From Haloprofundus salinisoli (GTDB lineage: Archaea > Halobacteriota > Halobacteria > Halobacteriales > Haloferacaceae): 64,000 bases of DNA. The position numbers and the translations under genes were made by a program. This document shows, piece after piece, positions 22,503 through 60,322 of this stretch; position 1 is the stretch's first letter; each line of letters opens with the position of its first letter. The DNA is taken from NCBI RefSeq assembly GCF_020097815.1, contig NZ_CP083664.1, positions 62,001 through 126,000 of the forward strand. The letters are read 5' to 3'. The notes beneath the pieces are model-generated. The model was not told the origin of the DNA. It ran no database searches and saw only the letters and a program-made list of their open reading frames with translations.

Positions 22503-24416
22503 ATGGATACTGACGACCCGTTCGAGGAGGTGCGAGAGAGGAGCGGTAGCGGAAATCCGATGTGGCGCGTGTTCGTTGAGTACGGTCGTGGCGAACGCTT
22601 TCAATTTCTGCTCGGAGGCGTTGCAAGTGTGTTTGCCCGGGCAGCCGGATTGATACCACCGCTCGTTCTCGGCCTCGCTATTGACGCGCTATTTTTTGAT
22701 GTCCGGGAGTTCCAACTTCCACTGGTTCCACAGGCGTGGGTTCCACCCGGTACGTGGGGACAGTTCTGGCTCACCGCAACACTGCTTGCAGGGGCGTTTC
22801 TCGTTGGTGCGCTTCTCAACTGGGTCAACAACTGGTCGTGGAACCACTTCGCTCAACACATCCAACACGAGCTTCGTATCGCAACATACGACACGATGCA
22901 GACACTTGAACTGGAATTCTTCGATAGCAAGCAGACAGGCGAGATAATGAGCATCCTCAACAACGATGTCAACCAGCTAGAGAACTTTCTCACCTCGAAT
23001 TTCAATGCAGCAATTCGAATTTTGGTGATGGTCGGCGGGACTGGAGTTATCATGTTTTTCATAAATTGGCAGCTCGCTCTCGTTTCGTTTGTAGTCATTC
23101 CCATACTTGGAGGGCTAAGTTACTGGTTCGTCTCTACAATTCACCCGAAATATCGAAGCGTGCGGTCGGCTGTTGGCTCCCTCAACTCGCGACTAGAGAA
23201 CAACCTCGGCGGCATCGAAGTCATCAAAGCGTACAACACCGAACGCTTCGAGACTGGCCGCGTCGAAACGGCGTCACGTGACTACCTCGAAGCGAACTGG
23301 GATGCGATTGCGACGCGCATCAAATTCTTCCCCGCAATGGAGTTCGTCACCGGACTCGGATTCGTGCTCACCTTCACCGCTGGTGGTCTCTGGGTACTGT
23401 TCCCTGAACAAGTGCCATTCCAAACCGCGCTCACACCTGGCGTAGTCGTGATGTTTCTCATGTACAGCCAGCGGTTCATGTGGCCGATGCGTCAAATGGG
23501 ACAGATCATCAATAGCTATCAGTACGCAGTGGCGGCAGGCGAACGTATCTTTGGACTCATCGACGAACCGAATGTGGTTGCCGAGCGTAAGGATGCTGTC
23601 GAACTCGAGACTGTGGATGGACGAGTCAAATACGACAGCGTCGACTTCCGATACGAATCCGGTGGCGGTCTCGTCTTAGACGACGTGAACTTCACCGTCG
23701 AGCCCGGCGAAATGGTTGGTCTCGTCGGGACGACTGGATCCGGTAAGACGACGCTGCTCAAACTACTGATGCGCTTTTACGACGTGACCGACGGTGCAAT
23801 TCGTGTCGACGGAACAGATGTGCGGGACGTGACGCTTACAAGCCTCCGGCAAAAAATCAGCTACGTGGGCCAAGAGTCGTTTCTCTTCTACGGGACAGTT
23901 AGGGAGAACATTGCCTATGGGAACCCGACCATTTCGGATGCGAGCATTAGAGACGCAGCCAAGCTCGCAGGCGCACACGAGTTCATCAAGGCGCTGCCTG
24001 ATGGCTACGATACAATGGTCGGCGAGCGTGGCGTCAAGCTCTCAGGGGGACAGCGACAGCGTGTGAGTATTGCACGAGCAATCCTCACCGACCCAGAGAT
24101 ACTCGTCCTTGACGAAGCAACGAGCCACGTTGACAACGAAACCGAAATCGTCATCCAAGCAGGACTGGAGAAACTCACCGAAAATCGGACGACGTTCGCC
24201 ATCGCACATCACCTCTCGACCGTCCGTGACGCAGACCAGATTCTCGTCCTTGACAATGGAGAACTCGTCGAACAGGGAACCCATGAGGAACTACTTGCCG
24301 AAGACGGGCGGTACGCTAATCTCTGGCGAGTACAAGTTGGCGAATTGGAGATGCTTCCAGAGGAGTTTATTGAAAAGCAATTCAACGACAGAGCCGAATC
24401 CCGGACTGATGACTAA
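22503..24416 (+). CDS. ABC exporter, fused permease and ATPase half-transporter
   Basis: A 637-residue type IV ABC half-transporter. The N-terminal half has six hydrophobic helices (about 35-330) of the ABC exporter fold. The ATPase half has Walker A VGTTGSGKTT (about residue 412), the signature LSGGQRQR, Walker B ILVLDEATSHVD and the H-loop IAHHLSTV. It would act as a homodimer moving lipids, drugs or metabolites outward. A TTTATACT box lies 34-41 bases before the ATG. Nothing nearby identifies the cargo. Confidence 0.9.
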   Translation: MDTDDPFEEVRERSGSGNPMWRVFVEYGRGERFQFLLGGVASVFARAAGLIPPLVLGLAIDALFFDVREFQLPLVPQAWVPPGTWGQFWLTATLLAGAFLVGALLNWVNNWSWNHFAQHIQHELRIATYDTMQTLELEFFDSKQTGEIMSILNNDVNQLENFLTSNFNAAIRILVMVGGTGVIMFFINWQLALVSFVVIPILGGLSYWFVSTIHPKYRSVRSAVGSLNSRLENNLGGIEVIKAYNTERFETGRVETASRDYLEANWDAIATRIKFFPAMEFVTGLGFVLTFTAGGLWVLFPEQVPFQTALTPGVVVMFLMYSQRFMWPMRQMGQIINSYQYAVAAGERIFGLIDEPNVVAERKDAVELETVDGRVKYDSVDFRYESGGGLVLDDVNFTVEPGEMVGLVGTTGSGKTTLLKLLMRFYDVTDGAIRVDGTDVRDVTLTSLRQKISYVGQESFLFYGTVRENIAYGNPTISDASIRDAAKLAGAHEFIKALPDGYDTMVGERGVKLSGGQRQRVSIARAILTDPEILVLDEATSHVDNETEIVIQAGLEKLTENRTTFAIAHHLSTVRDADQILVLDNGELVEQGTHEELLAEDGRYANLWRVQVGELEMLPEEFIEKQFNDRAESRTDD

Positions 24417-24578
24417 AGAATGAAAAAGAACCCGGTAGGCTCAACTAACCTCTGAACTGCCTCGGGGTCAAGTGGTTCAAGACGCGGGGCGTCTCGTCAT
24501 CACGGAACTCTTCGATTTCCGTACGACCCCGAGGCACTCGACCTGCTCCGCCTGTCGCAACCAGGAGAGAACGTGGTC

Positions 24579-25466
24579 TCAGTAATACGGCTGATACTCC
24601 GAGAGGAATGCATCTCCATTGACGTGATGGTCGTCAAGAACAGTACTTTGGGGCGTAATCGGCCGTGAGTGTTCGAGAGCCGCGTGGACGGCGAGCAGAA
24701 GCGACGCCGAATTTAGCACGCGGTGGCTTGCATCATGTGTTCCTTTCACCGATTCAAGGAACGTATCTACGTATCGTTGGTACATTGATTCGAGATCGGC
24801 TTTGGTGCTGCCCACAAGCGTAGTCTGTGCACCCTCTGTATCCAATACGATGAACGTCTCCTCGTGTTTCGGTCCGTCGAGACGGAGCGTCGCATACGTG
24901 TCGTCCTCGAAGAGAATGTCAACGGTTTGGCCGGGGTCTTCTGCCGGCGTGACCGATACCCAGTCAGTACCCGCAAGTTGGCAAACAGTATCAACGAGGT
25001 GAACGCCGTAATAGAATGGGTCGCCGTAGCCGACACAGTATAGCGATTTTCCGCTTGATTGTGCGACTTTCTCCGTCAACGTCGGATGATAGGGAACGGC
25101 GGAACCGCCGAAAAATGCAGTATCACTCACGGCGTCTTTGAGTCCCCTGATATCGCGGGTACAACCAGCCACTGGCTTGTCAACCATTGTCGCCACACCA
25201 GTCTCGAGGAAAGGTGTCGCAAGTTCTCTATGAGTATCCCAATTGACCGTGAGTACCATCGCAGCGTCTACAACGTCCAGCAACTCGTCGGGGTCGTCGT
25301 AAACAGGCGCATTATACTTTTCACCGAATTCTCTGCAATATTCGTTGCTCCGAACATCGCCACCGTCCCAAACCGCAGAGACATTCGCGTCTTCGTGATT
25401 CGAGATGATCTCTGCGAAGCCCTCAGAGTGACTTGTGTCTAGTCCGAGGAGACCAATATTGACCAT
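24579..25466 (-). CDS. Gfo/Idh/MocA-like oxidoreductase (GLDTSH type)
   Basis: The start is taken at 25,466 (MVNIGLLGLDTSHSEGF), five residues inside the longest frame, giving 295 residues. The Rossmann region keeps GLLGLDTSH, typical of a branch of Gfo/Idh/MocA proteins. The EKP motif is changed to VDKPVAG. The C-terminal domain is shorter than in the pair at 2,922-4,891. Enzymatic activity is plausible, but the changed motif leaves substrate and direction open. Monocistronic; followed upstream by an AT-rich gene-free stretch. Confidence 0.78.
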   Translation of the reverse strand: MVNIGLLGLDTSHSEGFAEIISNHEDANVSAVWDGGDVRSNEYCREFGEKYNAPVYDDPDELLDVVDAAMVLTVNWDTHRELATPFLETGVATMVDKPVAGCTRDIRGLKDAVSDTAFFGGSAVPYHPTLTEKVAQSSGKSLYCVGYGDPFYYGVHLVDTVCQLAGTDWVSVTPAEDPGQTVDILFEDDTYATLRLDGPKHEETFIVLDTEGAQTTLVGSTKADLESMYQRYVDTFLESVKGTHDASHRVLNSASLLLAVHAALEHSRPITPQSTVLDDHHVNGDAFLSEYQPYY

Positions 25467-26008
25467 CCTCTGTTCGTGCAAACCGAAGTGACTTAAACAT
25501 TTGCGGGGTCACAAATCGTGTCTGCAGGGCTGCAATCCTCAAAGATTGGCTATTTTGGGATTGGTCTACATCGAGACTGTGTTTCGAGATATCAAAAACC
25601 ATAGATGCCCAATATCAACTCTTTCCAGTAAGGAATTTTGCTCGAAATTCTAGAACGATCCAGCAAAAAGAGACAGGACCACTCAAAACGGTTCCTAGTT
25701 GGAGTTGTTTCAAAATCTGTTTGGGGTGTACTGCACAACGTTTCGTGCTGAACCCCACTAAGATCAGTTTTGTCATCAAAAATACTCTACCAATCAATAA
25801 CACATCACTTAGTTCGTTTTGTCATTCGAAACACGTTGCCGAAGGCAATTCCTCGTCACAGACGTCAAAACGTCCATCCATATCCAACTGAGCATTACAC
25901 ATCTAAGTTTGTAATGGAATTGCTAGACGGTCCCTGGAGTAGGATTTCAGATTAACGGATTCTACAGACAGATGTTTAGAACAGCAAAACGGAAATACGA
26001 GTGTACGA
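25467..26008. other. Gene-free AT-rich stretch
   Basis: No credible gene is seen. Base composition is markedly richer in A and T than in the flanking genes. It contains two copies of a TTTTGTCAT-centred near-palindrome (25,768-25,781 and 25,813-25,833). A related third copy lies on the far side of the neighbouring sulfatase gene. Confidence 0.5.
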
Positions 26009-27580
26009 CTATAGCTGTGGTAGCCCCTGGAGTTTCACGCCAAAAGTATCGATTGTGCGCTGAAGAGCCTCACGTTGCCTCTCCGTTCGATCTAAGTCAG
26101 CATAGAGGTCTGAGAGTGCATCCGGATCAACATACAGGTACGGACCGGTAGCACACATTCGTGCAAGCGTATCTTGTCCACGGCTCCGATCAGGCCGCTG
26201 TTCTCGCCACCCATCGGAAAGATGTTCAGCAATCCACCGATCAAGTATCTGGCGGAGGTGTTCCGTTCGCTTTGGATGTGACTCTACTAGATTATGTTCC
26301 ATGTAAGGGTCAGTTTCCAAATCATGGAGTAATTCAAGTCCCTGATTCGCCATCGTGGGGTCGTTGTAGAGCCCAGGATAAGTGAACACACCAGGGTGAA
26401 GCAGTCGAACGTACATCCATCGATCAGTGTATACTGCTCGACCGAACGTGTAGATACCGTGGCCCGAGACAATGTATTCTCGCTCTGCGAACTGCTTGCC
26501 GTACAATGCCGGTGTGAACGCTCGTGCGTCCCACTCTACCGGGACTGGAGTATTCGTGAGTTCACAAATCGTCGGCATCAAATCGAATTGGTAAACCAAT
26601 GAGTCGACACTCTCCGTTTCCGATTCGTCTCTTACACCCGGCCACGAGACGACAAGCGGAACCTGCTGACATGGCGGATGTGGAAACGCGTGTTCGGCGT
26701 AGATGCCGTGTTCACCGAACGCTTCTCCGTGGTCAGCAGTAATGACAACTGCAGTTTCTTCTCTGATACCATGGCGTTCGAGCGCAGCTAATAGCTTCGC
26801 CACCTCTGCATCGACTCGCCGAATGCTTGCGTCGTATCCGTCGACGAACTGTTCGACGTCGGCCCGACTCGTAACCTGCTCGGGCATTCGCCAATCATAG
26901 TCGTCTGCCCAATCGGGTCCGTACTGTGCCGGCGCGGGCCAGAGGTCTGCACATCTGACGCCAGTCATTCCACGCTGTTCGGCAATCGCCTCCGCATCTG
27001 GCCACTGGGCTGCTGATCCGGAGTCACGCACTAACTCGAGGAACGGATCAATACCGAGGTAGGGATGATGGACGTCCCAATAATTCACGTGGAGGAGCCA
27101 ATTTTCGTCTTCGGCATGTTGATCGAGCCACTGTTCGGCGACTGGTGTCACATCCGAGCAGTCCTCAATGGCCATAGTCCCCGCGTTTGCGGTGGGTTGG
27201 ATTGCCTCCTGAAACGAGGCGCTAAAGTGATGTGCCATGTGTCGCTGTGAGAAACTGCTCACGGATGCAGTGTAGACTCCGTTCTCGGCGAGATGTCGAA
27301 ATGATGGAAGTCTAGCGGCGTCAGGATCGTGACCGTTCCCAGGTTCGTCGTAGCGCTGTCCCTCGCCGTAATGTGTTACGACGCCTGTTTTCAGCCCGAA
27401 TCTGCAGGTCGCTAGCGCGGTTCGGCTCGGGAGACAAGGGGTGTCCGAAGCATAACAGCGCTCGAAGCGGACACCGTCTTCTGCGATGCTATCTATTATC
27501 GGTGAGGTAGCACGGTCGTAACCATAACACCCCAGGTGGTCGGGTCTAAGCGAGTCAATATCGATAACGAGGATTCGCAT
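26009..27580 (-). CDS. Type I (formylglycine) sulfatase
   Basis: The start is set at 27,580 (MRILVIDIDSLRPDHLGCYG), matching the start of the sulfatase at 8,913. The longer frame adds five residues. The 523-residue protein has the signature CLPSR at Cys49, and TADHGEAFGEH carries the second metal site. It is cytoplasmic by lack of a signal peptide. It is the closest paralogue of the first sulfatase, so the two may arise from duplication with different ester specificity. It is flanked on both sides by AT-rich gene-free DNA. Confidence 0.92.
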   Translation of the reverse strand: MRILVIDIDSLRPDHLGCYGYDRATSPIIDSIAEDGVRFERCYASDTPCLPSRTALATCRFGLKTGVVTHYGEGQRYDEPGNGHDPDAARLPSFRHLAENGVYTASVSSFSQRHMAHHFSASFQEAIQPTANAGTMAIEDCSDVTPVAEQWLDQHAEDENWLLHVNYWDVHHPYLGIDPFLELVRDSGSAAQWPDAEAIAEQRGMTGVRCADLWPAPAQYGPDWADDYDWRMPEQVTSRADVEQFVDGYDASIRRVDAEVAKLLAALERHGIREETAVVITADHGEAFGEHGIYAEHAFPHPPCQQVPLVVSWPGVRDESETESVDSLVYQFDLMPTICELTNTPVPVEWDARAFTPALYGKQFAEREYIVSGHGIYTFGRAVYTDRWMYVRLLHPGVFTYPGLYNDPTMANQGLELLHDLETDPYMEHNLVESHPKRTEHLRQILDRWIAEHLSDGWREQRPDRSRGQDTLARMCATGPYLYVDPDALSDLYADLDRTERQREALQRTIDTFGVKLQGLPQL

Positions 27581-28185
27581 AATTGTATAATCCACTTCTG
27601 GTATTTGTATCTAGAGGTCTACCCATATTGACAGACAAAGAAGTCACGAAAGGAGATCGGATGAATCTCAGTTGAGAAGATGCCTGTTTTCAGAGCAGCA
27701 TGTGAACCGCCTTAATCATACTAGCTGTAAATACCCTATCCCTATTATAAACAATCCAAAGTTTATTACCTTCGTTTGTCATTAGAAACAGGACAGCGTG
27801 AGAATAGTCCATGAATACCTAGATATACCCAGATATACTGCGAAATGAAGGCTATACGTTAGATATTATAGAATCTTATCCGCAAATATTCTAATTCTAG
27901 CTTGTACGGGGAGCATAACTGCTGGCCCTTCGGATCTATATTTGAACTTTTCTTAGTTTATTAACGACACCGTGTCTGAACTACGGTCGAGTTATTTCGT
28001 TGTAGAGTGGAATATTACTGATATAGAGCGAATCGACATGAGCAGGATATCGCTCACATCGTACGGATGATAACGGCCGCGCCGAAGAGTTTGGTCGCAC
28101 CGTAGTACTGGTCGGATGATTCGACCAAGCACTGGCTATAGAGACCAACGCCGAGCACCGAAAGGATGAACGCGACAACGAAGCC
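27581..28185. other. Gene-free AT-rich stretch
   Basis: No supported gene. The A/T content is high for a haloarchaeon. It includes one TTCGTTTGTCATTAGAAACA copy at 27,771-27,790. It ends where a methyltransferase remnant becomes recognisable, so this is probably a decayed or recently rearranged junction between the catabolic island and the methyltransferase operon. Confidence 0.5.
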
Positions 28186-53366: not shown

Positions 53367-53477
53367 TTACAGCCCAGTTTTACTGCGTTCAGTCAGAAGG
53401 TTCCCGGCCAAAGATAACTACTCTTCGCCAAGGGGCTGCACACGAACCGAACCATTTACTTCTCACTGACAGAGTGA

Positions 53478-53663
53478 GAGAGCAACCTCTATGAAGAGAA
53501 GATTGTCTTCAGGGATTATCTTCGTGAACACCCTGAAGCCGCCGAACAATATGCCTCCTTGAAGAAGAGCTTGGCTGAGGAATATTCGAAGAACAGGGAG
53601 GAGTATACCGCTGAGAAGGGTGATTTTATTCAGGAGATTCTCGACCGGGCGATGAACAAGTAA
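53478..53663 (+). pseudogene. C-terminal remnant of a GrpB family gene
   Basis: Reading from just after a stop at 53,475, the frame gives about 60 residues ending in TAA at 53,661. It contains FRDYLREHPEAAEQYASLKK, then LAEEYSKNREEYTAEKGDFI and ILDRAMNK. This matches the C-terminal third of GrpB (UPF0157, nucleotidyltransferase-fold) proteins, which are about 170 residues long. The catalytic N-terminal part is missing and there is no proper start, so it is a fragment. Confidence 0.68.
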
Positions 53664-53991
53664 TCATTTCTCTACCGATTTTGTGTCTTCTCTCCCGACA
53701 CGCCCGTTTGCTGTATACAACCTCTCTATTCAGCACACCGTTTCTATTAGTCGACTAGTGGTGTGGGACATCGCAACTACCTGGTCGTCGAGGCTATTGA
53801 CGAGCTGTCGCACGGTCGTCTCGTTGATATTTGCGATCGAATCACGGACTGCATTCTGATCTCGTGCGGGGTACCCGACTTCAAGTCGTTCGTGAGCGTC
53901 TCGCTCTGTGCCAGCCGGGAGCGCGGTGACCCAGCTCCGAGAGCTTGTCGAAAAATCGAGGGCGAGCGGCTGCCAGTCGCCGATATCGGGG
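53664..53991. other. Gene-free stretch holding a half repeat
   Basis: No supported gene; a 98-codon minus-strand frame overlapping the phosphatase end has no family character. The stretch contains the first half-copy of the array repeat (53,709-53,745) and a perfect TAGTCGACTA palindrome at 53,748-53,757. Confidence 0.45.
53709..53745 (+). repeat. Array repeat copy 1 (left half only)
   Basis: Carries the left-half pattern TGCTGTATACAACC and TATTCAGCAC (53,727-53,736) followed by CCGTTTCT. No right-half GTGCTGAATA is found downstream, so the copy is incomplete. It marks the 5' edge of the repeat array. Confidence 0.65.
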
Positions 53992-55914
53992 TTAGACCGC
54001 CGAATACGACGCTTCGTCGAGGACAATCCCGTCGTCGTTAGCGACGAGTACCGTATCGGGATTACTGTTGTTCAGGACCGGACCGCCGAAGTCGGCATAG
54101 AGCGTCGACTCGGTGTCCTCGCCGCTCCCGTTCCGAACGGTAACCGTCTCCCCTGCTCCGAGGGTGAACTCACCGAACGTGTAGTTCTGGTTCCCTGCTT
54201 CGAAGCTGAGGATGAACCCCGAGAAGTCGATTGCGGTGTCGCCAGTGTTTTTCACCGTGGCGAACTCGTTGTTGAGATCGCCGTTCTGATCCGGTCTGAT
54301 CTCTGTGATCTCGACGGCTGACTGCTGGGGTTGGGCAGGGCGTTCGGAGGCCAGGTTCGCACCAGGATCGCCGGCGTCGGTTGTGAACGATGCGACCGTA
54401 CTTACTGAGGCTTCGGGCTCCTCGACAGTCGAGACGACCCGGTAGTCGGTTCGCCACTGCTCGGGAGTGATTGTACAGCGGACGTAACCCCGCTTATCGT
54501 TGAAGAACCGCTGCCAGGGTTCACCGAGCGACGGTCCGTACTGGGTTATTCCGGACCCATCCCCGAACGAGGAGATCGAGGTGCCGACGTACTCGGTGCC
54601 GACCGTCTCGGAGTCGGGGTCCGAGAAGTCGGCTTTGAGGTTGTAGACGTAGTTGCGGTGGACGTCGCCGGTGATCACGACGGGGTTTAGATCGGAGTCG
54701 GCGGCCATAACGTCGAGCAACCTCTCCCGGTCGGCTCGGTACCCGTCCCACTTATCACCGCCGCCGAAGTCCTGTACGTCTGGATTCGGGTTCTCATCGG
54801 TTGCGGCGAGCGGAACCTGGTTGGCAAGGACGTTCCACCGGGCTGTGGAGTTGTTCAGCCCGTCGACCAGCCAGTCTTCCTGTTCGTCGCCGAGAATGGT
54901 CCGTCCTCGATTGTCGGCTTCCTCTGAGGAATCGACTTGATCGTCGCGGTACTGCCGAGTGTCGAGGACGTTGAACTCGGCCAGATTACCGAAGGTGAAC
55001 CGCCGATAGAGCGGTAGGTTCGGGCCGTCAGGCATCCGCGAGGGACGCAATGGCTGATGTTCGAAATACGCTTGGTAGGCCTTTGCCCGACGGGCAAGGA
55101 ATTCTTGCGTGGGGTCGTTCGCTTGGGAAGTTGCGTCGGCGTAGTTGTTTTCGACCTCGTGGTCGTCCCAGGTGACGAGCCACGGGAACGCAGCGTGGGC
55201 GTCCTGTAGGTTCGAATCGGTCTTGTATTGTGCCTCGCGGATCCGATAGTCACTCAGGCTTTTGATTTCGCGAGGCGGTTCGTGGCCGCGATCGATCGAG
55301 CCTTGTCCGCCGCCCTCGTAAATGTAGTCACCTAAGTGGATAGCCAGATCGAGGTCCTCGTCGGCGAGGTGGTCGTGCGCGGTGTAATACCCGGAGGGGT
55401 AGTTCTGACACGAGGCGAATGCGAACTTGATCTCGTCCACGTCGGCTCCCTCTGCAGGGGCCGTTTTCGTTCTTCCGACCGGGCTTCGGTTGGAGTCGAC
55501 TTTGAACTGATAGTAGTATTCCGTATTGGCATCCAATCCCTTAACGTCGATATGGACCGAGTGGGCGTACTCAGGACGTGCCTTCGCGATGCCCTTCCCG
55601 ACAGTATCGTCCATGTCCTCGTCGGTCGCTATTTCCCACTGTACTGGTACTTGGCGGTCGGGCATTCCACCGTCTTCGGCCAATGGCTCGGGTGCGAGGC
55701 GCGTCCAGAGGACGACAGAGTCCGGCAGGGGATCACCAGAGGCAACACCAAGGGTGAACGGATCACCTGTTATCCGTCCCTGTTCGTTGTTCTCTCTGGC
55801 GGTAACGATTCCTGTACCTGACGCGCCAACTCCGGCGATCGTCGCGGTGGTGACCGCTTTTCGGAGGAACTTGCGTCGGCTTTCTTCGAGTGGGTGATCT
55901 AAGCTGTTGTCCAT
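53992..55914 (-). CDS. phoD: PhoD-family alkaline phosphatase with lamin-tail domain
   Basis: The start is set at 55,914 (MDNSLDHPLEESRRKFLRK), nine residues inside the longest frame. A Tat signal SRRKFLRKAVTTATIAGVGA opens the 640-residue protein, so it is exported folded. The PhoD phosphatase domain has FTLGVASGDPLPDSVVLWTR, FASCQNYPSGYYTAH, HLGDYIYEGG, WDDHEVENNYA and VITGDVHRNYV. The last 100 residues (VEITEIRPDQNGD to SYSAV) form a lamin-tail-type beta-sandwich, often seen on haloarchaeal secreted proteins. It releases phosphate from phosphodiesters or monoesters outside the cell. It lies between repeat copies 1 and 2. Confidence 0.92.
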   Translation of the reverse strand: MDNSLDHPLEESRRKFLRKAVTTATIAGVGASGTGIVTARENNEQGRITGDPFTLGVASGDPLPDSVVLWTRLAPEPLAEDGGMPDRQVPVQWEIATDEDMDDTVGKGIAKARPEYAHSVHIDVKGLDANTEYYYQFKVDSNRSPVGRTKTAPAEGADVDEIKFAFASCQNYPSGYYTAHDHLADEDLDLAIHLGDYIYEGGGQGSIDRGHEPPREIKSLSDYRIREAQYKTDSNLQDAHAAFPWLVTWDDHEVENNYADATSQANDPTQEFLARRAKAYQAYFEHQPLRPSRMPDGPNLPLYRRFTFGNLAEFNVLDTRQYRDDQVDSSEEADNRGRTILGDEQEDWLVDGLNNSTARWNVLANQVPLAATDENPNPDVQDFGGGDKWDGYRADRERLLDVMAADSDLNPVVITGDVHRNYVYNLKADFSDPDSETVGTEYVGTSISSFGDGSGITQYGPSLGEPWQRFFNDKRGYVRCTITPEQWRTDYRVVSTVEEPEASVSTVASFTTDAGDPGANLASERPAQPQQSAVEITEIRPDQNGDLNNEFATVKNTGDTAIDFSGFILSFEAGNQNYTFGEFTLGAGETVTVRNGSGEDTESTLYADFGGPVLNNSNPDTVLVANDDGIVLDEASYSAV

Positions 55915-56141
55915 TGTCCGCGATTCATTCCTTGCTGGCAAAAAGATAAATCTATATATGAGATAAATAGATATAAATGAATGATACAGAGATGAATATA
56001 GTCTATGGTTAATCCAAGACTATGCGCTGGATTATCATCAACGACTCCGATATAGAGAAAAACGGTCAAATACTAAATCCTATCCCGTATATATCCGCGC
56101 AATTTTAGAACAATATTGAACACCGTGGACAGACGACCGCG

Positions 56142-56230
56142 TTGCTAAATACAACCTCTGTATCTCGTACGCTGTTTCTGACAAGGACTGGGCGGTTTGT
56201 GGTGGCCGTGCTGAATAGAGGGCGCGAATC
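56142..56230 (+). repeat. Array repeat copy 2
   Basis: Left half TGCTAAATACAACCTCTG with a diverged TATCTCGTAC, then CTGTTTCTGACA; right half GTGCTGAATA at 56,208-56,217 followed by GAGGGCGCG. It is oriented like the others. A further TATTCAGCAC lies 69 bases beyond (56,286-56,295), with a perfect 8-base hairpin ATTCCTCG/CGAGGAAT (56,242-56,262) between. Confidence 0.75.
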
Positions 56231-56285
56231 GGTTACTGATAATTCCTCGGTAGACGAGGAATCGGATTAGTAGCTATAGAGGAGT

Positions 56286-56300
56286 TATTCAGCACGTCCA
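56286..56300 (+). repeat. Extra left half-site (TATTCAGCAC) after copy 2
   Basis: TATTCAGCACGTCCA pairs with GTGCTGAATA at 56,208-56,217 as a 10-base inverted repeat. The following CGTCC is shared with the half-site at 60,303. Confidence 0.6.
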
Positions 56301-56366
56301 GTTCTCGTTGTTCCGTAATTCGATATCAGCAGAACAGTTAACCTTCGGCGAAGAACAGAGGTGAAA

Positions 56367-56992
56367 ATGGGTACCGATATCCATGGGTTCATCGAGCGAA
56401 CTGACAGGGGACCCAGGCCACTCGCCCAAAACATTTCGTGGTTAGTCACACGCGCCTACACGATATTTGAAGCTCTGTTCGGCGTAGCGGGCGGCTACGA
56501 GTTTGAACCGTCCTTTATCGCCCATCGGGGGCTGCCGGAGGAGAGAAGCATGTGGTTCGACCAGTTTATCGATGAGGAAGAAGAGACAATACAGAACTTG
56601 GAATACTTCGGCGCAACTTGGTTCACAGTCAAAGAACTCCACGAGGTAGACTGGGATACAACCGGGGAGAATCGCTGTTATATTATCTCTGATGCAAACG
56701 ATAACCCGATAGTGCGTCGGCGTGCCAAACGTTACAATCTCAAGGAGGTTATTGACGATGAGGAACTTATCGACCGCGTCCTTGAGGGTGAGCGGGTTGA
56801 GCTTCCGCCAGAGGCGGTCCCTGAGCATTCATACTTCGAGGACGCAGACCCTCGATATGCATATACTGAGTATCCAACTCGTGCTGATGTTATTGCAGGC
56901 CCGTGGGAATGGTTTTATGGACACACTTGCCATCGTACGCGGAGAGATTCGGCGAGGAGAACGTCCGTGTAACCGTGTATTTTGAGAACTGA
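56367..56992 (+). pseudogene. MGTDIH-type conserved protein with 3' frameshift
   Basis: The protein begins MGTDIHGFIERTD and has GYEFEPSFIAHRGLPEE and FGATWFTVKELHEVDWDTTG. This matches a family of unknown function found in bacteria, phages and archaea that starts MGTDIH and ends with a conserved VRxxxxFxN strand. The frame as read stops at 56,972 with an unlike tail (YGHTCHRTRRDSARR). Shifting one frame near the run TTTT at about 56,912 restores HLPSYAERFGEENVRVTVYFEN with a stop at 56,990-56,992. It is therefore a recent frameshift, a sequencing error, or slippage. ATG 56,367 or GTG 56,361 could be the start. It lies between repeat copies 2 and 3. Confidence 0.68.
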
Positions 56993-57081
56993 CTACCGAA
57001 TTTCAGCCATCGGCTGATGCATCGCACATTTAGTTACCGTCTGAATTATCGCTAACAATCTGAAACGAACACTGACCATCT

Positions 57082-57170
57082 ACTGCACCCATCCTTTGTA
57101 TTCAGCACGCGATTACTGCTGGAGAATAAATAGATTGGTCGTGTCCGTGCTGAATACAAGGCGCGATTTC
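57082..57170 (+). repeat. Array repeat copy 3
   Basis: TATTCAGCAC at 57,099-57,108 and GTGCTGAATA at 57,147-57,156. The arms extend to TTGTATTCAGCACG and CGTGCTGAATACAA, a perfect 14-base inverted repeat. The flanking bases differ from copy 4 but remain paired (TTG/CAA here), which suggests the structure is kept by selection. Confidence 0.78.
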
Positions 57171-57217
57171 AGCACCGACTCCGGGATTCTCAATCAGGCT
57201 GGTATAACGAACGCTAC

Positions 57218-57688
57218 TCAATCCACTAGTCGGTCGTGGACTTCTACGGGATCAATCTCCCACGGACCAAACCGACCTTCTGCAACATTCGTTGCGATAC
57301 TACGTGTATCTACGTTGTGCCGGTGCATGTGTTCAAAAATTTGCTCGACGAGGTCTTCTGTGGCCGAGCGGAGGTCACCGACCGTTCCGACGATTTCAGG
57401 ATTCCCAAACAGCGATACCTCATCACCGTTGAAACGGATTTCAGTCAGGCCCGTCCCCCAAAGAACCCTCCCTGACTCTCGCGTTTCGAGCCGATTGAGT
57501 AGCAGAAAAGCGTGCTCAAGACACGTATACCCGTATCGTTGTTCGGTCTCCCCACCATCTCCGTCACGAACCTGGAGAACGAAAGCCGCCGCATCGGGAA
57601 CCCATTCGAGATCTTCGGGAGCAGTGTATTCACCAACATCGATAGTAAATCTCACCGCTTCGATTTCGATAGTCTCGCTCTTTTCCAT
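57218..57688 (-). CDS. Hypothetical acidic protein in repeat array
   Basis: A 156-residue soluble acidic protein that I do not recognise. It begins with beta-rich sequence (IEIEAVRFTIDVGEYTA, AAFVLQVRDGDGGE), has TCLEHAFLLLNRLE, then EIVGTVGDLRSATEDLVEQIFEHMHRHN, and ends with PWEIDPVEVHDRLVD. No catalytic motif is visible. It stands alone between repeat copies 3 and 4, on the opposite strand to its upstream neighbour. Confidence 0.68.
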   Translation of the reverse strand: MEKSETIEIEAVRFTIDVGEYTAPEDLEWVPDAAAFVLQVRDGDGGETEQRYGYTCLEHAFLLLNRLETRESGRVLWGTGLTEIRFNGDEVSLFGNPEIVGTVGDLRSATEDLVEQIFEHMHRHNVDTRSIATNVAEGRFGPWEIDPVEVHDRLVD

Positions 57689-57778
57689 TCAGGTTTCAGT
57701 ATGAATCCACAATTCAAAAAGACCACCAACACTACCGTCTTGGATTGTTGTCCGTCGCTAGGAGTACCACGATACTAT

Positions 57779-57866
57779 GTGCTGAATAGACCCTCTGTAT
57801 TCAGCACGCGTCTTCTGACAGAACCTGAGGAGGTTTCAGCGACTGTGCTGAATAGAGAGCGCGTGT
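57779..57866 (+). repeat. Array repeat copy 4 (best preserved)
   Basis: Three core half-sites occur: GTGCTGAATA (57,779-57,788), TATTCAGCAC (57,798-57,807) and GTGCTGAATA (57,845-57,854). The first two form a tight hairpin with a nine-base loop. Conserved inner segments are TTCTGACAG after the left core and GTTTCAGCGACT before the right core. GAGAGCGCG follows. Confidence 0.82.
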
Positions 57867-57929
57867 CTTGCAATCCACGACTTGGAGCAGCAGCTCATTA
57901 TCGCAGTCCAATTGGAACCAGTGGCCGAA

Positions 57930-58289
57930 TCAGGAAGTCCTCATGAACCGATGTCGCTGGATAAGGTAGGTGCCTGATATAAGGACGCTTAACAGTGGGA
58001 TGAACACGAACAGATAGAGGAGAGTCGGCGTCCACTCAGACCGCTCACTGACGTACTTACGGTCGTGGTAGAGCGCAAACGGTGCGAATAGAGAAACCGC
58101 ATAACTCAGGAGGATTGGCACTGAGGCGATTTCAGTAAGATACCCAGAAAACTGTACTCCGAGGTACGGAGCTAAGAGAGTGTTCGACAGTGCCATCAAG
58201 AACCAGAAGAGGAAGAGCACCGGAATCATCAGAATTGGAATCCACCACTTTCCAGAGAACATCACTTGGCGAGTTTGTGTTGTAGACAT
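57930..58289 (-). CDS. Small membrane protein in repeat array
   Basis: A 119-residue membrane protein of unknown function with three clear hydrophobic helices (about 12-34, 46-70 and 92-110) joined by short loops (DRKYVSERSEW). There is no signal peptide and no recognised motif. It lies between repeat copies 4 and 5 on the minus strand. Confidence 0.68.
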   Translation of the reverse strand: MSTTQTRQVMFSGKWWIPILMIPVLFLFWFLMALSNTLLAPYLGVQFSGYLTEIASVPILLSYAVSLFAPFALYHDRKYVSERSEWTPTLLYLFVFIPLLSVLISGTYLIQRHRFMRTS

Positions 58290-58337
58290 GAGTTCAGCTC
58301 AGTGATACCAATTGTGTGCAACCGAATATACTTCTTC

Positions 58338-58435
58338 TGCTGCATACAACCTCTGTATCTTGCACCCCGTTACTGACAGTGGTTGAAGAGTTCAGTTACC
58401 GACTACTGAATACAAGGTGTGTATCTTGCATGCCG
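58338..58435 (+). repeat. Array repeat copy 5 (TATCTTGCAC variant)
   Basis: TGCTGCATACAACCTCTG, then TATCTTGCAC (58,356-58,365), TACTGACAG, and a right core CTACTGAATA (58,403-58,412), with a second TATCTTGCA at 58,422. The core variant is shared with copy 7, so the repeat family has at least two core types. Confidence 0.72.
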
Positions 58436-58505
58436 AGCAGCAGATACTCCGCCAATAAATACGGGACTCCCCAAATATATATTGAGGATCTTCGTTTGGG
58501 ATTGT

Positions 58506-59021
58506 ATGCCTCGAATTTCGCGTCGGTCAATTCTTGCTTCGTGCGGCTTTTCACTTTTGCCCACCATATCCGGTTGTTCCGGGAGAGGATTTTTTAGCCA
58601 ACCGTTCGACCCACATGATCACGTCAGTGATTGGCAGGACGAGCCAGCCCGTGGGAAGGCAAATCCGATCGAAACAGAACAAACGGTCGATTCTCAGAAT
58701 TCGTTAGAGTCGAAGTGTCTCTGGGTCAGCACGGAAGCGGTCGAATCAACGGTTGCTAATCGAGTCTCTCTCACGAGAACACTTCATTTCGACTATAGGA
58801 AGGCAGATGGAGTGAACGATGGAGAGTGGTTCGTAGAGGCCAATCGTATTATTTACTTCACTCAGTCAAATGAAGTTCATCTAAAGCCCGAAATACCGTT
58901 CGCTACCCTTTGCGAAGCCACACCCCGAACCGTCCGGACGACTCTCACGGGCAAAGATGAGGAGTATTCCTGTCGTCACCCTGTCTACGTCTCGGATTAT
59001 GCTGAGCAAGTAGCCCCATAG
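58506..59021 (+). CDS. Putative Tat-exported lipoprotein in repeat array
   Basis: The start at 58,506 (MPRISRRSILASCGF) gives a twin-arginine signal and a lipobox-like ISGC near residue 20, followed by a Ser/Asp-rich region. The 171-residue mature part is unrecognised, with beta-type segments ANRVSLTRTLHFDYRKA and EWFVEANRIIYFTQS. The longer frame from 58,419 would run through the repeat and is rejected. It stands alone between repeat copies 5 and 6. Confidence 0.65.
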   Translation: MPRISRRSILASCGFSLLPTISGCSGRGFFSQPFDPHDHVSDWQDEPARGKANPIETEQTVDSQNSLESKCLWVSTEAVESTVANRVSLTRTLHFDYRKADGVNDGEWFVEANRIIYFTQSNEVHLKPEIPFATLCEATPRTVRTTLTGKDEEYSCRHPVYVSDYAEQVAP

Positions 59022-59106
59022 CAGGAGGCAACCGCGGCTACTTTCGAATCGTTCAAACGATGCGACACTCTCTGGAGTGGACAATAACTATGTCGTCTAC
59101 AGGACC

Positions 59107-59194
59107 GTGCTGGTGCATACATCCTCTATATTCAGCACGCGATCTCTGACAGCGGGAAGAAAGGTTCCAGCGACTGTGCTGAATAGAGAGCGCA
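59107..59194 (+). repeat. Array repeat copy 6
   Basis: TATTCAGCAC at 59,129-59,138 and GTGCTGAATA at 59,176-59,185, spaced 47 bases centre to centre as in copies 3-5. Inner segments CTCTGACAG and GGTTCCAGCGACT match copy 4. Confidence 0.8.
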
Positions 59195-59318
59195 TATCGG
59201 TCATCGGATCGGCACTCAATGCGAGCGAATTGAATTGCTCGGTACAGGTAGCGGACCAACCGTTCGGTGCAGAAGAAGACTCTAACAGGGGAAGGCCGAG
59301 TAGAGACGTGTTTCGAAA

Positions 59319-59819
59319 TCAGCCATCACCCGGCGGATCTTCGGGACAGTACATCAGTGTCCCACCGGTTCCTGAGTCAAGGCCCCACTTGCCGACTGTA
59401 ATCCCTGTCCCCCCGATGTTGCAGTCAAACGTTGAGCGTGGCAACTTTACCGTCTCCACGTGAGTTCCATGTGTGACTGTTACAGTGTAGTTCGCTTCGT
59501 ATGTGAAATTTCCAGAGATAACTGCATCCGGTGCAAGTTCATATGTACGATCAAAGACGACATCGCCCTCTCGTTCCACGCGCACTGTGACGATGGCCGG
59601 ATTGGCCTCATCGTTCCGAATCGAAAGTCCGTGTGGGCGTTCATTCGGTTCTAAGTTATTGAGGTGGGTGTACTCGACGACAGTTTCGTTCGCCACGTAC
59701 ATCGTCTCTGACGTAGGCGGTTGACTCATCGTTGGTGCGGCACAACCAGCGACCAGAAGACACAAAATGAGAGCTAGACCGACGAAACCTCGATTCTGAA
59801 GTGGAGGGCGGAAACGCAT
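59319..59819 (-). CDS. Secreted lipoprotein in repeat array
   Basis: A 166-residue protein with a Sec-type signal and lipobox (LALILCLLVAGC, Cys near 26), then a Pro/Ser/Thr-rich linker. A beta-sandwich-like body follows (ANPAIVTVRVEREGDVVFDRTYEL, FTYEANYTVTV). Two cysteines near the end (FDCNIGG, LMYCPED) could form a disulfide. The function is unknown; similar small lipoproteins are common in haloarchaeal accessory regions. It lies between repeat copies 6 and 7. Confidence 0.7.
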   Translation of the reverse strand: MRFRPPLQNRGFVGLALILCLLVAGCAAPTMSQPPTSETMYVANETVVEYTHLNNLEPNERPHGLSIRNDEANPAIVTVRVEREGDVVFDRTYELAPDAVISGNFTYEANYTVTVTHGTHVETVKLPRSTFDCNIGGTGITVGKWGLDSGTGGTLMYCPEDPPGDG

Positions 59820-59956
59820 ACTACATATAGAAGAAAACGTCCCAATAGACCTTTCTGAATTACTGGATTGTCGAATAGAGGAAATGATTGATACACTCTC
59901 AGTCCTACTGAGCGGTTAGTTCGGCGTTGAGAAGACGAAAACAAACGAAGCTCCAT

Positions 59957-60030
59957 GATGGATACACCCTCTGTATCTTGCACGATGCTTTTATCATCGG
60001 CTGAGGGTTTCAACAGAGCCGTATCAGCTG
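59957..60030 (+). repeat. Array repeat copy 7 (TATCTTGCAC variant, right half diverged)
   Basis: GATGGATACACCCTCTG and TATCTTGCAC (59,974-59,983) match copy 5. The right half is weak (GAGGGTTTCAACAGAGCC, then TATCAGC). Confidence 0.62.
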
Positions 60031-60045
60031 TTTTCCAGTCCGAAT

Positions 60046-60240
60046 CTACCGTGCCAGCAAAGCCAGCAGTGCACCGACTACCGTCAGACCACCGACGAAG
60101 GATCCAGCCATGCCCAATAATGTCCCGTATCCCTGTGTAGCGTCCGCAATCTCGGCAAGCAACAAGATACAGAAACCAAGTTGAAACACGATAACGAGAG
60201 ATAGTTCAGGAAGCGAAATATTGTACTTGCTGGAGGGCAT
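60046..60240 (-). CDS. Small two-helix membrane protein in repeat array
   Basis: A 64-residue protein with two hydrophobic helices (about 12-32 and 40-62, Gly/Ala-rich) joined by ADATQGYG. Function unknown. It occupies the unit between repeat copy 7 and the terminal half-site at 60,303, continuing the one-gene-per-repeat pattern. Confidence 0.6.
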   Translation of the reverse strand: MPSSKYNISLPELSLVIVFQLGFCILLLAEIADATQGYGTLLGMAGSFVGGLTVVGALLALLAR

Positions 60241-60302
60241 TAATCACCATTCCAGAATAATCAGAGAAATTTCTACCGATTACTGTTCTATACGCAGGTG
60301 GC

Positions 60303-60322
60303 TCTATCAGCACGTCCGCTCT
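60303..60322 (+). repeat. Terminal half-site of the repeat array
   Basis: TCTATCAGCACGTCCGC resembles the extra half-site at 56,286 (shared CAGCACGTCC) with one core base missing. It is the last trace of the repeat family before the GC-rich sequence at about 60,444. Confidence 0.45.

Follow-up and report, generated by a model that had tools for sequence, protein, structure and literature searches.

The window analysed here, 64,000 nucleotides (nt) of Haloprofundus salinisoli DNA, forms part of a 0.36-Mb replicon (C2:62001-126000) in a genome of 3.42 Mb. Towards its right end, single genes alternate with copies of a composite repeat, the 93-nt element, which consists of a left site (L), a connector, and a right site (R). 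This array very probably belongs to a haloarchaeal cassette-capture system that is integron-like in its working and built from different parts. A sequence-only reading had counted seven copies of the element. Repeats are confirmed at those places, above chance, but only five are full elements; at 53709 and 59956 only the left half-site is present. Two extra half-sites proposed in that reading did not hold up, the one at 56,286 being weak and reversed (score 15) and the one at 60,303 lying below the score threshold. From left to right, the parts of the array are as follows.

53709..53736, plus strand: left (L) half-site with a truncated connector (score 31.9; a right half is not within reach), marking the left end of the array as recognisable in the window
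53992..55941, minus strand: gene for a PhoD-like alkaline phosphatase (PF09423, E 1e-108), in the first interval (53737-56142)
56143..56235, plus strand: full 93-nt element, with the L site at 56143-56169, the connector, and the R site at 56209-56235
56236..57080, plus strand: cassette 1, single gene 56361-56972 (+), 203 amino acids (aa), without a Pfam family
57081..57174, plus strand: full element of 94 nt (one base inserted), from the site scan
57175..57779, minus strand: cassette 2, single gene 57218-57688 (-), 156 aa, without a Pfam family
57780..57872, plus strand: full 93-nt element, from alignment and site scan
57873..58337, minus strand: cassette 3, membrane protein gene 57930-58289 (-), 119 aa, weak DUF1240
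58338..58430, plus strand: full 93-nt element, from alignment and site scan
58431..59110, plus strand: cassette 4, lipoprotein-like gene, open reading frame to 59021 (+), start likely near 58506
59111..59203, plus strand: full 93-nt element, from alignment and site scan
59204..59955, minus strand: cassette 5, lipoprotein-like gene 59319-59819 (-), 166 aa
59956..60021, plus strand: right array terminus, L site at 59956-59982 followed by GATGCTTTTATCATCGGCTGAGGGTTTCAACAGAGCC, an inverted-repeat end

The first interval is not a clean cassette because it has no R site at its left. Directly left of the first half-site, positions 53400-53662 hold a degraded frame that looks by eye like a fragment of a GrpB-family gene. 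At the other end of the array, the terminal motif at 60009 lies 25 nt past the L site, the same spacing as at other right ends, and since this defined terminus closes the array, the 64-aa gene at 60046-60240 does not belong to it. Cassette 3 has a related 465-bp cassette of equal length between sites in Halogranum amylolyticum; the match (81%, window positions 57943-58355) stops at the final base of the L-site spacer. The gene of cassette 5 has a homologue on a plasmid of Halorussus vallis, there outside any array.

The motif TATTCAGCAC occurs in 34 copies in the whole genome, compared to 0 in a reversed control, and profile matches number 72 in the source genome and 84, 61, 22, and 19 in four congeners. 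The array sample covers array regions of 33 genomes, 1.5 Mb in total, in which a position matrix finds 252 full elements, compared to none in 1.5 Mb of reversed sequence; a further 202 half-sites are present. Aligned copies form a gapless composite, with 236 of the 252 full elements exactly 93 nt long, in which two 27-nt dif-like sites, L and R, each of a 9-9-9 organization, flank a 39-nt connector. The four 9-nt arms follow the order TGCTGAATA - 9 - TATCnnGCA - 39 - TGCTGAATA - 9 - TATCGGTCA, and the consensus spacers of 235 elements are CACCCTCTG on the left and CAGnGCGCG on the right. The pair of left and right cores described in the sequence-only reading is thus present, with the corrections that the element measures 93 nt instead of about 90 and that, as it is built from two 9-9-9 sites, the cores are the inner two of four arms. 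Elements of different arrays are only ∼70% alike. The connectors fall into a few recurring sequence types across arrays and genera and resemble the fused inner halves of both array ends. About 12 to 25 nt before the first arm of the L sites, a weakly conserved GAAAnnAAC-like stretch is found in the end of the cassette, perhaps an accessory binding site.

The arrangement seen in the window, with all five full copies on the plus strand and genes on either strand, recurs across the genomes. Adjacent full elements less than 2.5 kb apart lie on the same strand in 143 of 144 cases in the 33 genomes. The strand of the genes is random, with the longest frame running along the elements in 43 intervals and against them in 40 (first set, 83 intervals). 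This frame fills a median of 69% of the interval, and there is usually one gene between two elements. The source genome contains a complete array at C1:2095881-2098639 with both termini, five cassettes, and no recombinase inside. A very long stretch, at C1:55000-92000 of a congener (G036; G-numbers label the compared genomes, with G000 as the source genome), carries ∼30 same-strand elements in 37 kb, in a genome without the small recombinase described below.

Cassettes differ between genomes as whole units. Homologous pairs of intervals match over their full length, the terminal bases included, while their neighbours differ, and some pairs cross genera at 94 to 96% identity; a cassette on C1 of the source genome shows 93.6% identity to one in G125, and a pair from G036 and G040 shows 96.3%. 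The orientation of homologous cassettes relative to the sites is always equal. Flipping of cassettes by recombination between R and L was considered as the origin of the random gene strand and rejected, as the homologous pairs include no cassette in inverted orientation. Compared position by position, the outer arms move together with the gene, while the inner arms and the connector do not. At the L site, linkage to the cassette is high through spacer position 13 and lost at position 18 (24 pairs). At the R site, linkage is absent at the variable spacer positions, begins between positions 16 and 19, and is present from the outer arm onward (18 pairs). Both profiles are consistent with a crossover at about one place, towards the 3' side of the spacer.

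The sequence-only reading had proposed comparing strains for gain or loss of single repeat-gene units, and such differences are found in two pairs of closely related species, with breaks at a fixed position in the repeat. G128 and G125 have flanks and elements that are 98% and 96% identical, between which lie unrelated cassettes of 357 bp and 387 bp, a swap of a single cassette. The swapped G125 cassette is the one shared at 93.6% with the source genome, which belongs to another genus. Compared with G120, G028 has gained 1.9 kb at a single R site, a unit that holds a PAS-histidine-kinase gene and now has an R site on either side. At a second site of the same two genomes, a piece of ∼150 bp stands against a two-gene piece of 1.6 kb, between an R spacer and an L spacer.

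Complete arrays are bounded by the inverted-repeat ends GGCTCTGTTGAA ... TTCAACAGAGCC. The left border, GGCTCTGTTGAAAyCCTCA..., lies 40 nt ahead of an R site, and the right border, ...TGAGGaTTTCAACAGAGCC, lies 25 nt past an L site, with 15 cases at exactly that distance. A scan for complete arrays gave the order left end - R - (cassette - element)n - cassette - L - right end in 15 cases at 14 loci. True left ends are always followed by R and right ends always preceded by L; three left-end matches without a following R half-site are false motif matches. A single cassette of ∼330 bp without an annotated gene lies between both termini on the Haloferax larsenii plasmid pHl5678-2 (NZ_CP078065.1:255417-255824). 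An empty platform of ∼110 bp was predicted beforehand and then found in several genomes, with intact palindromes read directly in G080 and G028; the model for the wider platform search is mostly built from joined half-ends, and its E-values should therefore not be over-read. At one inspected empty platform, no target-site duplication is visible by eye. A genome search with the flank of the G028 platform matched only itself and G126, which is likewise empty, and returned no occupied orthologue. Insertion of gene-plus-connector circles into empty platforms by recombination of R with R or L with L was set aside, as right ends would then be preceded by R or left ends followed by L, neither of which is seen.

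The tyrosine recombinases of the source genome were listed genome-wide, and the search near arrays that the sequence-only reading had advised leads to a gene inside the site framework. A tyrosine recombinase of 234 aa, encoded at C1:1480861-1481562, adjoins a half-site. Relatives with 73 to 93% identity are present in Halorubrum, Halorussus, Natronorubrum, Halorientalis, Halogranum, Halobellus, Natrinema, and others. In many genera, the recombinase gene replaces the 39-nt connector, with an L site ∼60 to 66 nt away on one side and an R site 44 to 69 nt away on the other; in one subgroup, the gene is reversed inside the same L/R frame. Haloprofundus halobius has arrays as well as the recombinase. 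The megaplasmid of Halorubrum ezzemoulense Fb21 (24102-28132) shows the whole order within 4.0 kb: left end, R, phosphate transporter, L, recombinase, R, one gene, L, right end. The catalytic residues Arg, Lys, His/Arg, Trp, and Tyr are all conserved, and the predicted structure shows a tyrosine-recombinase catalytic domain close to XerA. The closest annotated relative is phiCh1 Int1, with 44% identity over 221 residues, and the recombinase was not found in viral contigs. A CxCGYC motif (alignment columns 94-105) is conserved in the recombinase group and in phiCh1 Int1 and possibly forms a metal-binding insertion absent from standard Xer proteins. Against TIGR02249, the IntI model, the enzyme scores 20 bits with a cut-off of 265. 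Two large tyrosine recombinases near arrays were considered as well; they also fall below this cut-off, are not IntI, and look like ordinary island integrases.

In the mechanism proposed for the system, a cassette would consist of a single gene, often in an orientation of its own, between two outer arms to which a recombinase binds. Cassettes would alternate with connectors of ∼57 nt bearing the inner arms, so that each junction forms a dif-like 27-bp site. The small recombinase, whose gene takes the place of the connector middle in some arrays, would carry out the excision, insertion, and exchange of cassettes, cutting and rejoining the DNA at a single point close to the 3' end of the 9-nt spacer. 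Arrays would grow within the palindromic platform of ∼110 bp (GGCTCTGTTGAA ... site ... TTCAACAGAGCC), which also exists empty. Free circular cassettes would carry a site of two outer arms, and the platform or connector junction a site of two inner arms, both pairs probably serving as binding sites of the recombinase; exchange between them would give R on one side and L on the other. This circle model is the simplest fit to the array ends, the single-cassette arrays, and the linkage profiles. With strand exchange close to the 3' edge of the spacer, the R spacer would stay on the platform side and the L spacer would go with the cassette, which matches the observation. A wider proposal, slightly less likely than not, describes an independently evolved, class-wide system in which a minimal recombinase similar in type to phiCh1 Int1 would cut out gene-only circles between R and L and insert them into small palindromic platforms, themselves maybe mobile and including the SMR elements of Haloquadratum.

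Several points weigh against this mechanism. Recombination, and the role of the 234-aa enzyme as its agent, are deduced from genome comparison. Different L and R spacers are not favoured by simple double-strand tyrosine recombination, and the breakpoint profiles are based on 18 to 24 pairs. Among the empty platforms read, most have a spacer of the L type and one has a spacer of the R type, the latter being the type expected under the simplest insertion model. The unit inserted in G028 has an extra, second left terminus; it therefore derives from another array and is not the simplest unit. Given the L-type empty platforms and a unit with an R site at either end, exchanges of more than one type may take place. 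Three array-bearing species of the same genus are without the small recombinase, which therefore acts from elsewhere, was lost, or is replaced by another enzyme.

An alternative already raised in the sequence-only reading sees the 93-nt element as comparable to a miniature inverted-repeat transposable element (MITE), a nonautonomous derivative of an L-recombinase-R transposon that inserts between immobile genes. The recombinase gene does occupy exactly the place of the 39-nt connector, as an autonomous MITE parent would, and the connector types recur. However, it is the genes that move whole with exact ends while connectors vary, single cassettes are swapped between otherwise identical flanks, and the outer arms are conserved too; same-strand arrays at 143:1 are not expected from scattered insertions, and target-duplicating random insertion fails to explain moving single genes, leaving this explanation quite improbable. 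Similarly improbable is plain homologous recombination, in which the elements, being mutually similar, would be mere short homologies for gene shuffling. Haloarchaea recombine readily, but the breaks are confined to a few bases within the 9-nt spacer and not scattered across 93 nt, the similarity between arrays is as low as given above, and a dedicated recombinase and defined termini are left unexplained.

Action of the host Xer recombinase on dif-like sites, with the small recombinase incidental, is unlikely. It agrees with the 9-9-9 dyad sites, with the alternation of L and R, which are roughly mutually inverted like pdif sites, and with the existence of arrays that lack the small recombinase. 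Against this stand the near-fixed distances at which that gene lies within the site framework in many genera, the paired sites, fixed connector, and platform ends foreign to dif modules, and the lack of inverted cassettes here, whereas pdif modules invert (PMC13141974). Shared RNA or transcription signals between genes, such as the processing hairpins suggested earlier or terminators, would suit the intergenic location and the palindromic arms; their chance of being right is slight in the extreme. Genes are divided 43:40 by strand while the elements point in one direction, RNAalifold finds no structure on either strand for 36 copies, and there is no Rfam match in the region. Covariation of the arms, which the sequence-only reading had proposed to examine, is likewise not found, the complementarity of box1 and box4 arms within an element being no higher than that between elements. 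Mean single-stranded DNA folding shows a weak z of about -1.3 compared with mononucleotide shuffles, in a run without a positive control. As sole explanation, such signals are refuted by the swap pairs, since they leave cassette exchange unexplained.

The element is present in 134 of 148 genomes of the family, and sites are found in 113 of 145 genomes sampled from the class. A phylum-wide sample gave 18 genomes with a match, all from one order, with none outside the order among the matches listed. The open-access literature yielded no earlier description of the core sequence or of haloarchaeal integrons, preprints and most subscription papers being outside the search. Gene gain in haloarchaea is famously high, with no general mechanism so far to account for the movement of single genes; the system would explain part of this gain by a concrete route for single genes between archaeal species and make it testable. 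The cassette genes mostly encode unknown membrane proteins, lipoproteins, and small soluble proteins, so that the arrays mark an accessory gene pool. The system could also supply genetic tools for archaea that act by insertion at short sites.

Among known systems, Int1 of the haloviruses phiCh1, phiH, and ChaoS9 provides the relatives of the recombinase. Int1 is encoded inside an invertible tail-fibre segment, a viral inversion switch, and no 93-nt elements were found near it. SMR-A of Haloquadratum walsbyi measures ∼110 bp, has prominent inverted terminal repeats, shows no target duplication, and is mobilized in a manner called "enigmatic" (PMC3119063). Its size and shape match the empty platform, a likeness drawn from the published description; in contrast to the platform, SMR-A targets IS605-type elements. 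The 'deletion-coupled insertions' of Haloquadratum were considered as the same process; their paper reports no targeting sequence.

The pdif modules of Acinetobacter plasmids use the host enzymes XerC and XerD, invert, and are reported only from Acinetobacter (PMC13141974). They likewise consist of separate genes bounded by short dif-like sites whose orientation alternates, and move and rearrange as modules, but the haloarchaeal system has paired sites, a 39-nt connector, defined termini, and a dedicated recombinase, with no inversions seen. By their conservation profile, its sites are of the 9-9-9 type with other arm sequences and not the 11-6-11 XerC/XerD sites of pdif.

The integrons described from archaeal metagenome-assembled genomes rest on canonical IntI and attC (PMC9668308), and the terms 'Halobacter' and 'Euryarchaeota' have 0 occurrences each in the main text of that report (PMC9668308). 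The haloarchaeal system is not a member of the integron family with regard to recombinase, core site, and att arrangement: the enzyme is not IntI, a conserved hairpin was not found, and the GTTRRRY/RYYYAAC core of attC is not in the consensus, GTTRRRY being absent from that of the 235 elements, as the sequence-only reading had remarked of the cores. Each element instead contains two full dif-like sites, both with breakpoints, the recombinase gene lies between L and R inside the array and not beside attI, the acceptor is a separate palindromic platform of ∼110 bp, and the gene strand is random. The integron-type interpretation of that reading nevertheless finds support in unit-wise change at a fixed position of the repeat. 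As in integrons, single-gene cassettes stand in rows with sites in one direction, units are gained and swapped at a fixed crossover, a tyrosine recombinase is present, arrays occur with and without its gene, and acceptor sites exist empty; arrays without the small recombinase resemble the bacterial clusters of attC sites lacking IntI (CALINs). The haloarchaeal system would be a second way to build an integron-like device, with both site pairs in use.

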